Assembly (NCBI GenBank): GCA_030693515.1
Contig: JAUYAK010000010.1
Location: 124,001-188,000, forward strand
Reading direction: 5' to 3'
From: Opitutaceae bacterium
GTDB lineage: Bacteria > Verrucomicrobiota > Verrucomicrobiia > Opitutales > Opitutaceae
DNA: 64,000 nt
This document shows, in pieces, positions 50,900-53,805 of this stretch. How positions within the stretch are numbered: position 1 is the first letter of the stretch; the number at the start of each line of letters is the position of its first letter. The translations under genes and the position numbers were made by a program. Under the pieces are notes generated by a model, which was given only the letters and a program-made list of their open reading frames with translations, did not search any database and had not been told where the DNA came from.

Positions 50900-51943
50900 T
50901 CAGCCCTTGCCCTTCGGCAACGGCACGGACTGGATCGTCTTCAGGATGCGGCCGGCCACGAGATACGGGTCGGCGGCGGAGTTCGGACGGCGATCCTCAA
51001 GGTAGCCCTTGTAGCCGTTGTTGACGAAGCTGTGCGGCATGCGGACCGAGGCACCGCGATCCGCGAGACCGTAGCTGAACTTGTCGATCGACTGCGTCTC
51101 GTGCAGGCCGGTGAGACGGAGGTGATTCTCCGGGCCGTAGACGGCGATGTGCTCGTTGCAGTTCTTGCTGAAGGCTTCCATGAGCTTCTCGAAGTAGGCC
51201 TTGCCGCCGACCTCGCGCATGAACTTCGTGGAGAAGTTCGAGTGCATGCCGGAACCGTTCCAATCGAGCGGGCTGTTGAAAGCCCCGAGGATGGGTTTGC
51301 AGCGCCATTCGATGTCGATCTCATACTTTTCGCACAGGCGCGCCATGATGTAGCGGGCGACCCACATCTGGTCGGCGGCGCTCTTGGAGCCCTTGCCGAA
51401 GATCTGGAATTCCCACTGGCCCTTGGCGACCTCGGCGTTGATGCCCTCGATGTTGATGCCGGCATCGAGGCAGATGTCGATGTGCTGCTCGACGATCTCG
51501 CGCGCGACGGAACCGACGTTCTTGTAGCCTACGCCGGTGTAGTAGGGGCCTTGCGGGGCGGGATAGCCACCCTCCGGGAAGCCGAGCGGGCGACCGTCCT
51601 GGTAGAAAAAGTATTCCTGCTCAAAGCCGAACCACGTGTCCGCATCATCCGGGATGGTGGCGCGCGAGTTCGAGGGGCTGGGCTGGCCGGTGTGCTGGTA
51701 GCACTCGCACATCACGAGCACGCCGTCCTTGCGCGTGCTGTCGGGATAGACCGCGACGGGCTTGAGCACGATGTCGGAACTCTTGCCCTCGGCCTGCTGG
51801 GTCGAGCTGCCATCGAAGCCCCAGTTGGGCAGTTCCGCGAGCTTCGGGAACTTGGCGAATTCCTTGATTTGCGTCTTGCTGCGCAAATTGGCCAGCGGCG
51901 TGTAGCCGTCGAGCCAGATGTATTCCAGTTTGTATTTGGCCAT
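50900..51943 (-). CDS. glnII: Glutamine synthetase type II (eukaryote-like)
   Basis: 347 residues, the size of GSII rather than the about 470 of GSI. EYIWLDGYTPLANLRSKT, NWGFDGSSTQQAEGKSSD, FGFEQEYFFYQ and FNSPLDWNGSGMHSNFSTK, HETQSIDKFSYG and NRGASVRMP-like DRGASVRMPHS are typical. It joins ammonia to glutamate using ATP. A sigma-54-type promoter lies upstream and an intrinsic terminator downstream, so it is a single-gene nitrogen-regulated unit. Confidence 0.95.
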   Translation of the reverse strand: MAKYKLEYIWLDGYTPLANLRSKTQIKEFAKFPKLAELPNWGFDGSSTQQAEGKSSDIVLKPVAVYPDSTRKDGVLVMCECYQHTGQPSPSNSRATIPDDADTWFGFEQEYFFYQDGRPLGFPEGGYPAPQGPYYTGVGYKNVGSVAREIVEQHIDICLDAGINIEGINAEVAKGQWEFQIFGKGSKSAADQMWVARYIMARLCEKYEIDIEWRCKPILGAFNSPLDWNGSGMHSNFSTKFMREVGGKAYFEKLMEAFSKNCNEHIAVYGPENHLRLTGLHETQSIDKFSYGLADRGASVRMPHSFVNNGYKGYLEDRRPNSAADPYLVAGRILKTIQSVPLPKGKG

Positions 51944-52041: not shown

Positions 52042-52057
52042 AGCAGCTCATGTGCCA
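52042..52057 (-). promoter_or_regulatory. Sigma-54 (RpoN)-type -24/-12 promoter of glnII
   Basis: Read on the minus strand, TGGCACATGAGCTGCT matches the consensus TGGCACG-N4-TTGCW except for two bases (A for G at position 7, C for T at 12). The GG and GC dinucleotides are at the required spacing. The start site would be about 12 bases on, giving a leader of about 90 bases to the glnII ATG. Confidence 0.7.
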
Positions 52058-52193
52058 GTGGCAATCAGAAGTTTTGTTCATGACATTGGTCGGGGCGTGA
52101 CGGGTGGCTGGCCGGAGCGGCGGGCCGGGGCACTCGCCGCTGCACCGCACGCTTGCCAGCCGCCGGCCCCACGCGAACCCTGCCGCCGCCGCC

Positions 52194-52613
52194 ATGCATT
52201 CGATCAAGGACACCGCCCGCGCCACCGTCCGCATCGGCTTCGACGGGCGCGTGCACAAGACCTTCCGCGGCCATCTCGCCCGCGAGCGCTTCGATCACGA
52301 GGTGCTGGTGTTGCGCCTGCTGGAGGAGCGCGGCTGCACGTTTGTGCCGCGCGTGCTGGAGGCGGACCCGGAGAAACTGCTGCTCGTGACGACCAACTGC
52401 GGCGGGCGGGTGGACCACCTGCAACCCGAACGACAGAAGGAAATCTTTGCGGAGTTGGAGGCCTTTGGCGTGCGCCACGAAGACCGCGACCTGCGCAATA
52501 TCACCTACCGCATCGCGGACGGCCGCTTCTGCATCATTGATTTCGAATTCGCCACCATCCTCGACGACGGCACCGGCCGCTCGATCAGTCTCCGCCCCTC
52601 CGCTGCGCAATGA
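52194..52613 (+). CDS. Minimal protein-kinase-like protein
   Basis: 139 residues from ATG 52194. A reduced kinase fold is visible: K22 in VHKTF, E36 in FDHEVLVL (likely helix-C glutamate), hinge LLLVTTNC, catalytic loop HEDRDLRN (H95, D97, N102; HxDxxxxN) and IIDFEF (D116, like DFG). Glycine-rich loop and most of the C-lobe are missing, recalling the compact Bud32/RIO-like or LPS-kinase folds. Its stop overlaps the PP2C start, so the phosphatase probably reverses its action. Activity is inferred. Confidence 0.7.
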   Translation: MHSIKDTARATVRIGFDGRVHKTFRGHLARERFDHEVLVLRLLEERGCTFVPRVLEADPEKLLLVTTNCGGRVDHLQPERQKEIFAELEAFGVRHEDRDLRNITYRIADGRFCIIDFEFATILDDGTGRSISLRPSAAQ

Positions 52614-53446
52614 CTCCCGAGCAACCCTCGCCCGACGTGCTATGGTCGGGCCTCACCCATCCCGGCCGCGTGCGGCCCAACAACGAGGACGTGTTCCTCG
52701 CCCTCGCGCTCGACGCGCGGGAGGTGAGATTCCTCGGCAAGACGGGCCGGGCCCCGCTCGCCGCAAGCGATTTCATTTTCGCCGTGAGCGACGGCATGGG
52801 GGGCGCCAAGTCGGGCGAGTTCGCCAGTCGCATCGCGGTCGACCGCATCACGCGGCTGCTGCCAGCGGCGCTGCGCGGAAACACGAGCGCGGCTCCGGCG
52901 GATTTCTCGGCCGTGCTCGGCGACCTCGTCGCCGCCATCCATCGTGATCTGCTGCGACTGGGCTACTCCTACGAGGAATGCGCCGGTATGGGCGCCACCC
53001 TCACGCTCGCCTGGGTGCGCCAGGATCGGATGCACTTCGCCCACGTCGGCGACAGCCGCCTCTACCATTTGCCCGCCGGCGGGCCGCTCATCCAGCTGTC
53101 GCACGACCACAGCTACCCAGGCTGGCTGCGCCGGCAGGGGCAGCTCAACGAGCGCGAAGCCCGCACCCATCCACGCCGCAACGCCCTCAGCCAGGCCCTC
53201 GGCGCCGGCAACCAGTTCGTCGATCCGCAGCTGGGTGAGGTCGCGCACCGCCCTGGTGATCGCTTCCTGCTTTGCTCCGATGGCGTGATCGACGGCCTCT
53301 GGGATCGCCAGCTCGAGGAGTTGCTCGGCACCGACCCCGCCGAGCCCGATCCGCGCAGCCGCGCCCACCGGCTCGTCGAGGAAGCGGTCGCCCTCTCCGG
53401 CCGCGACAATACCACCGCCGTGGTCTTCGAACTCGGTGCGCCATGA
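52610..53446 (+). CDS. PP2C-family serine/threonine phosphatase
   Basis: 278 residues. Metal-binding and catalytic motifs are in order: RVRPNNEDVF, AVSDGMGGAKSGEF, GMGATLTLAWV, AHVGDSRLYHL, LCSDGVIDGLW and SGRDNTTAVVFEL. It dephosphorylates Ser/Thr in the cytoplasm; no membrane or sensor domain. It overlaps the mini-kinase upstream and the cyclotransferase-like gene downstream, each by four bases. Confidence 0.93.
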   Translation: MTPEQPSPDVLWSGLTHPGRVRPNNEDVFLALALDAREVRFLGKTGRAPLAASDFIFAVSDGMGGAKSGEFASRIAVDRITRLLPAALRGNTSAAPADFSAVLGDLVAAIHRDLLRLGYSYEECAGMGATLTLAWVRQDRMHFAHVGDSRLYHLPAGGPLIQLSHDHSYPGWLRRQGQLNEREARTHPRRNALSQALGAGNQFVDPQLGEVAHRPGDRFLLCSDGVIDGLWDRQLEELLGTDPAEPDPRSRAHRLVEEAVALSGRDNTTAVVFELGAP

Positions 53447-53805
53447 GTTCGCGGCTCTTCGTTTACGGCACGCTCAAACGCGGCTGCTGCAACCACCATC
53501 ACCTCGCGGGCCAGCGGTTCATCGGCCCGGCCCGCACGGTCCCCGGCTACCGGCTCTACGATCTCGGCGGCTATCCGGGGCTCGCGGCGGCGCCCGATGA
53601 TCGAGCGGGCGTCGTGGGCGAAGTCTGGTCCGTCAATCTCGCGTGCCTGCGCGAACTCGATCTTTTCGAGGGCGTGCACGAGGGGCTTTATCGACGGGAC
53701 CCCGTGCCCCTGATCGCGCCCTTTGCGGCAAAAAAAATCGACGCCTACGTCTCCGCGCTGCCCGTGACCGGCCGCGCGGAGGTCGGGGCGGAGTGGATCG
53801 AATAG
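53443..53805 (+). CDS. Gamma-glutamylcyclotransferase-like (GGCT/AIG2) protein
   Basis: 120 residues. VYGTLKRGCCNHH near the start and GYRLYDLGGYPGL, VVGEVWSV and LRELDLFEGV match the YtfP/GGCT fold; the catalytic glutamate is likely in LDLFEG. Enzymes of this fold cleave gamma-glutamyl compounds. It ends 6 bases from the convergent tau extension of dnaX. Confidence 0.85.
   Translation: MSSRLFVYGTLKRGCCNHHHLAGQRFIGPARTVPGYRLYDLGGYPGLAAAPDDRAGVVGEVWSVNLACLRELDLFEGVHEGLYRRDPVPLIAPFAAKKIDAYVSALPVTGRAEVGAEWIE

Follow-up and report, generated by a model that had tools for sequence, protein, structure and literature searches.

The window, by which we mean the whole 64,000-nucleotide stretch of Opitutaceae DNA that was analysed, contains a small kinase-like gene that is followed by two further genes on the same strand and faces a glutamine synthetase gene on the opposite strand. 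The features assigned in this region, with the evidence used for each, are as follows.

50900–51943, minus strand: GlnII-type (type II) glutamine synthetase, divergent from the mini-kinase gene (profile, structure matches, co-occurrence)
52042–52057, minus strand: TGGCACATGAGCTGCT, a sigma54-like promoter directed towards GlnII (86 of 88 homologous intergenic regions have a counterpart)
52058–52085, no strand assigned: GGCAAYCAGAAGTTT...TTCATGACA, a block of conserved non-coding sequence adjoining the sigma54 site (intergenic alignment)
52194–52613, plus strand: mini-kinase of 139 amino acids, with an N-lobe, a truncated C-lobe and the residues K22, E36, HxD97, N102 and D116FE (alignment, AlphaFold2, Foldseek, VIA-align)
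52610–53446, plus strand: PP2C-type protein phosphatase of 278 amino acids (profile, conserved Asp motifs, adjacency and fusion)
53443–53805, plus strand: γ-glutamylcyclotransferase-like protein (GGCT) of the GGACT/AIG2 family, with a YGTL motif and E76 (profile, conserved residues)

The mini-kinase reading frame opens with ATG at 52194 and closes with TGA at 52611–52613 (139 amino acids), that of the PP2C runs from ATG at 52610 to a stop codon at 53444–53446 (278 amino acids), and that of the GGCT from ATG at 53443 to a stop codon at 53803–53805 (120 amino acids). An ATGA overlap is present at both the mini-kinase/PP2C and the PP2C/GGCT junctions, so that the coupling of the three genes by overlaps given in a preliminary description of this DNA was confirmed, coordinates included. 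The PP2C scored 62 bits against PF13672 (cut-off 24), and its metal-binding Asp motifs (D27, D61-G62, D224-G225 and D266) are intact and conserved in 117 sequences; judged by profile and motifs, the product is a PP2C phosphatase. By the same kind of reasoning the third product is a GGACT-type γ-glutamylcyclotransferase, with 79.3 bits against PF06094 (cut-off 22.8) and conservation of Y8-G-T-L11 and E76. GGCT genes adjoining the mini-kinase are mainly restricted to the Opitutaceae, the window's own family, and the three-gene operon is thus one local form of a module made up of GlnII, kinase and PP2C.

For the mini-kinase, the catalytic residues were located at the positions previously claimed, namely K22, E36, H95-x-D97-x4-N102 and D116-F-E118. 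In an alignment of 80 family members K22, E36, H95, D97, N102, D116 and E118 are invariant, as are R32, C48, P52, G70, R101, T104 and Y105, among others, and F117 of the DFE motif is nearly so. Three cysteines, C48, C69 and C113, are kept in nearly all members. The reported lack of a glycine loop was borne out insofar as the sequence has no Gly-rich motif, with the refinement that a β1–β2 hairpin (strands 2–6 and 10–14) is nonetheless predicted, its turn carrying a conserved K5-x-T7-x-R9. An orthologue is encoded by 63 of the 95 relatives compared, mini-kinase-encoding loci numbered 264 in GTDB genomes, and the family is strongly conserved in Verrucomicrobiae; together with the invariant catalytic residues, these counts rule out chance or an annotation artefact. 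Plasmids were also searched, and none encoded a mini-kinase. In the phylum of one further genome (G368), the mini-kinase was detected in 1 of 199 genomes, namely G368 itself.

The window protein passes no profile cut-off, scoring 16.8 bits against APH (PF01636; cut-off 23.2), 13.7 bits against Kdo (PF06293; cut-off 21.3) and 20.7 bits against the Bud32 profile TIGR03724 (cut-off 125). Across the 80 members, weak matches were obtained to APH in all 80, to Kdo in 65 and to TIGR03724 in 64 (best E 4e-8), and most members also match the Kdo, Bud32 or lanthionine synthetase profiles weakly. This pattern makes the mini-kinase a member of the kinase-like superfamily that fits no named family. A search of solved structures with a single sequence, either one homologue or the window protein, gave nothing credible. 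CK2 and CDC7, the best profile matches among solved structures, were rejected as candidates, the matches covering the catalytic-loop region alone. Outside the class, a phylum sample contained a single weak relative, a methyltransferase-like protein encoded among glycosyltransferase-like genes (locus L153, 3056–4423), the C-terminal domain of which resembles the mini-kinase (HRDMNRKN, DFE).

An AlphaFold2 model of the mini-kinase was obtained with high confidence (pLDDT 92.9, pTM 0.86), in which the β1–β2 hairpin is followed by α-C, two strands, a short α-E, the catalytic loop, two further strands and the DFE motif; beyond this there is little except a variable tail, and no helix follows residue 118. 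Foldseek returned Ark1 first (8yv4, E 8e-7, 29% identity), then PRPK/Bud32 and Rio2, and VIA-align gave Z scores of about 10–12.7 to many kinases, including Ark1 (Z 11.3, 30% identity, 110 residues). The structure prediction that the preliminary description had proposed yielded a kinase fold with PRPK/Bud32 and Rio2 among the nearest, and the suggestion of a compact kinase is upheld, as far as the fold goes, by a complete catalytic set, a confident model and kinase folds at the top of both searches. On the model, a kinase fold is almost certain. With its β3 Lys, α-C Glu, HxDxxxxN and DFx motifs in such a fold, the protein belongs to the protein-kinase-like superfamily. The features of Hanks-type Ser/Thr kinases (PF00069) are not all present: in place of the Gly-rich loop of subdomain I the turn reads K-x-T-x-R, and the full C-lobe, with activation segment and subdomains VIII–XI, is absent. 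Since the C-lobe after DFE is missing (activation segment, α-F to α-I), the fold gives no account of how the mini-kinase would bind a protein substrate, a point against the phosphorylation switch favoured below.

The nearest relatives by fold raise the question of an RNA substrate. ArkI/Ark1 (AQ578 family) is the closest solved fold, at 29–30% identity over about 110 residues, and shares the small size, the DFE metal loop and a reduced C-lobe without subdomain VIII. ArkI, an archaeal RNA kinase, phosphorylates U47 of tRNA. Some of its bacterial homologues have tRNA as a substrate too (PMC9095486). The mini-kinase could by analogy act on tRNA or another RNA, its links to PP2C and GlnII then reflecting co-regulation only. 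We consider this quite improbable, because the mini-kinases have an invariant H-x-D (H95-x-D97) where TkArkI has HGQ, and they have no counterpart of the extra C-terminal helices of TkArkI, in which a YKR motif of α-7 is thought to bind RNA. The known eraser is KptA, not a PP2C, and the literature consulted on ArkI describes no association with PP2C or GlnII; an RNA kinase would leave both the PP2C fusion and the GlnII association unexplained. Bud32/PRPK, the KEOPS kinase, likewise has a reduced kinase fold and a weak TIGR03724 match links the two, but the window protein lies far under the family cut-off, has a shorter C-lobe and is linked to PP2C and GlnII. An atypical minimal kinase of Bud32/ArkI/Rio-like type that uses ATP is the reading we retain for the mini-kinase itself.

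The pairing of this kinase with its phosphatase, also put forward in the preliminary description, held across the family: among 129 distinct mini-kinase loci, PP2C is directly downstream in 106 and fused to the mini-kinase in 12. On the mini-kinase tree the fused state needs 4 changes, at least 3 of them forced by supported branches, so that the fusion arose independently at least 3 times. Two fusions (G206 and G354) belong to genomes from the window's own family that are assembled as a single contig, and the model of a native fusion was again confident (pLDDT 95.2, pTM 0.81). The fused form also occurs in four loci titled as planctomycetes (L069, L081, L096 and L099), which may be transfers or mislabelled bins. 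In one genus PP2C is divergent beside GlnII (L182, L184 and L190) and the mini-kinase follows an mgtE-like gene (L146 and L148), and one other genome shows the same split of PP2C/GlnII from the mini-kinase (L183 and L191). In L146, L148 and L191, the mini-kinase gene lies directly 3′ of the mgtE-like gene, which encodes a magnesium transporter, and is distant from both GlnII and PP2C.

Hanks kinases and Stp1/IreP-type PP2C phosphatases encoded side by side, as in the PknB/PrkC–Stp pairs, form reversible Ser/Thr switches. Kinase and PP2C genes adjoin in the mini-kinase locus too, although here the kinase is a minimal one of 139 amino acids and there a Hanks kinase. On the evidence of adjacency and fusion, mini-kinase and PP2C are very probably partners, and we infer that the former phosphorylates a protein and the latter reverses this. 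Alternatively, the mini-kinase could have little or no catalytic activity and serve as a nucleotide sensor that controls the PP2C by allostery, with phosphorylation left to one of the genome's Hanks kinases. A missing substrate-binding lobe and the lack of a Gly-rich loop are compatible with such a role, as are four matches to Hanks-type kinases at other sites of the window's genome; fusion to PP2C would suit a regulatory domain. Pseudokinases, however, usually lose part of the catalytic set, which is invariant here (HxD Asp, DFE Asp, β3 Lys and α-C Glu), and in one genus the mini-kinase gene follows mgtE and is separate from PP2C; we therefore regard a sensor as unlikely, and continue with the reversible switch.

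The operon as titled in the preliminary description stood as far as its kinase, PP2C and GGCT genes on the plus strand are concerned; what it missed is the consistent partner, GlnII, on the other strand, and the sigma54-like promoter between them. The window GlnII scored 379.7 bits against the GlnII equivalog NF041605, which is under the curated cut-off of 500; it is about 75% identical to rhizobial GlnII and matches Streptomyces and eukaryotic type II glutamine synthetase structures. By these matches it is a type II glutamine synthetase, divergent from the NF041605 model. GlnII adjoins the mini-kinase in 96 of the 129 loci. In 87 it lies upstream in divergent orientation, and where the two genes share a direction it lies downstream in 5 and upstream in 4; the linkage thus survives three gene orders. 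Among 288 genomes from the phylum, 53 have the mini-kinase, 58 have GlnII and 52 have both (Fisher p 3e-49, phylogeny ignored), with the two genes within 5 kb of each other in 43 of the 52 and apart in 9. All 63 mini-kinase carriers in the relatives set have GlnII; two further genomes (G061 and G086) have GlnII without the mini-kinase, in both cases a distant form at 58–59% identity. A DnaX tree built from 73 genomes shows 14 changes of state for the mini-kinase. Among nine supported independent pairs, GlnII changes in the same direction in a mean of 8.9 (sign test p 0.004); when less complete genomes were excluded, five supported independent pairs were left (p 0.06). Because the two genes are often adjacent, a joint loss may be a single deletion, and the unlinked cases outweigh the sign test. 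Within its bacterial group, the mini-kinase is found almost only where GlnII is. One genome (G286) has a weak kinase-like domain and lacks GlnII.

Of the 88 intergenic regions, 86 have the sigma54-like site before GlnII, at a distance of 84 to 136 bases 5′ of the start codon, as against 5.7 sites expected from single-base shuffles. A site directed towards the mini-kinase was rejected, occurring in 5 of 88 regions, about the chance number. The block at 52058–52085 is, from its conservation, a probable regulatory site. A second conserved non-coding block, CGCTTGCC, lies between GlnII and the mini-kinase at 52150–52159.

Taken together, the kinase/PP2C pairing and the co-occurrence with GlnII suggest a so far unrecognised on/off switch for nitrogen use. 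The explanation that we favour, with rather better than even confidence, is that the mini-kinase and its adjacent or fused PP2C would form a reversible phosphorylation switch acting on nitrogen assimilation in Verrucomicrobiae, in which GlnII, expressed from the sigma54-like promoter under presumed nitrogen control, would be the probable target, or else the enzyme that is adjusted in activity. Of its parts, involvement in nitrogen assimilation is probable; that GlnII itself, rather than PII or another nitrogen-response component, is the direct substrate is possible but doubtful. GlnE/GlnD/PII offers a precedent in that post-translational control of nitrogen assimilation is also the purpose proposed for mini-kinase and PP2C, but there a type I glutamine synthetase is adenylylated, whereas here a type II enzyme, a kinase and a PP2C are involved and a search of the window's genome found no GlnE adenylyltransferase. 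GlnE is present in 3 of the 53 mini-kinase carriers and is rare across the phylum generally; mutual exclusion of mini-kinase and GlnE was not significant (p 0.44) and was discarded.

The pair may instead have a wider target related to nitrogen or energy, such as PII, a regulator or a transporter, with GlnII merely in the same regulon, a reading that we hold to be a real if minority possibility and that overlaps the favoured one, in which the exact substrate stays open. Several mini-kinase loci have PII and GlnA genes nearby. One (L111) has a PII gene, GlnII, the kinase, PP2C and a type I glutamine synthetase, in this order, and PII genes lie near five further loci; these arrangements speak for the favoured reading as well. 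Rhizobial GlnII, which is 71–84% identical to the kinase-type GlnII and has all its conserved Ser and Thr, was seen without the kinase: in the one annotated rhizobial locus examined (about 75% identical) neither kinase nor PP2C is nearby. No phosphosite specific to the lineage was found in GlnII of mini-kinase carriers, that is, no conserved Ser or Thr absent from rhizobial GlnII. The divergent layout also favours shared regulation. Against a broader target, GlnII alone is tied to the mini-kinase throughout, and the PII genes of the window's genome are located elsewhere than the mini-kinase locus. Three of them lie within about 4.4 kb (L274–L276; G000 contig C30, 33403–37740).

A literature search found no GlnII/mini-kinase/PP2C module and likewise no description of kinase/PP2C control of bacterial GlnII. 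If the proposed switch is real, the mini-kinase would be among the smallest protein kinases with a full catalytic set, and the ways in which bacteria regulate nitrogen assimilation would extend to a kinase/phosphatase route, here in a phylum with GlnE in few genomes. It would also provide a very small natural kinase for asking how much of the kinase fold phosphotransfer needs, and the natural kinase–PP2C fusions are convenient for testing.

For distant GlnII enzymes without a mini-kinase (families f44, f51 and f2), 7 of 8 fetched loci encode a Hanks-type Ser/Thr kinase close to GlnII, the exception, L192, being a short contig; this counts in favour of the proposed switch. A broader proposal, that a kinase of about 125 residues with a dedicated PP2C controls type II glutamine synthetase reversibly and that a Hanks kinase beside GlnII substitutes for it in other lineages, is offered only tentatively and seems to us rather unlikely. 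In all five f44 loci fetched (L176–L180), a GGCT-like gene, a Hanks Ser/Thr kinase gene and the distant GlnII stand in a row, a layout that parallels the GGCT link in the window.
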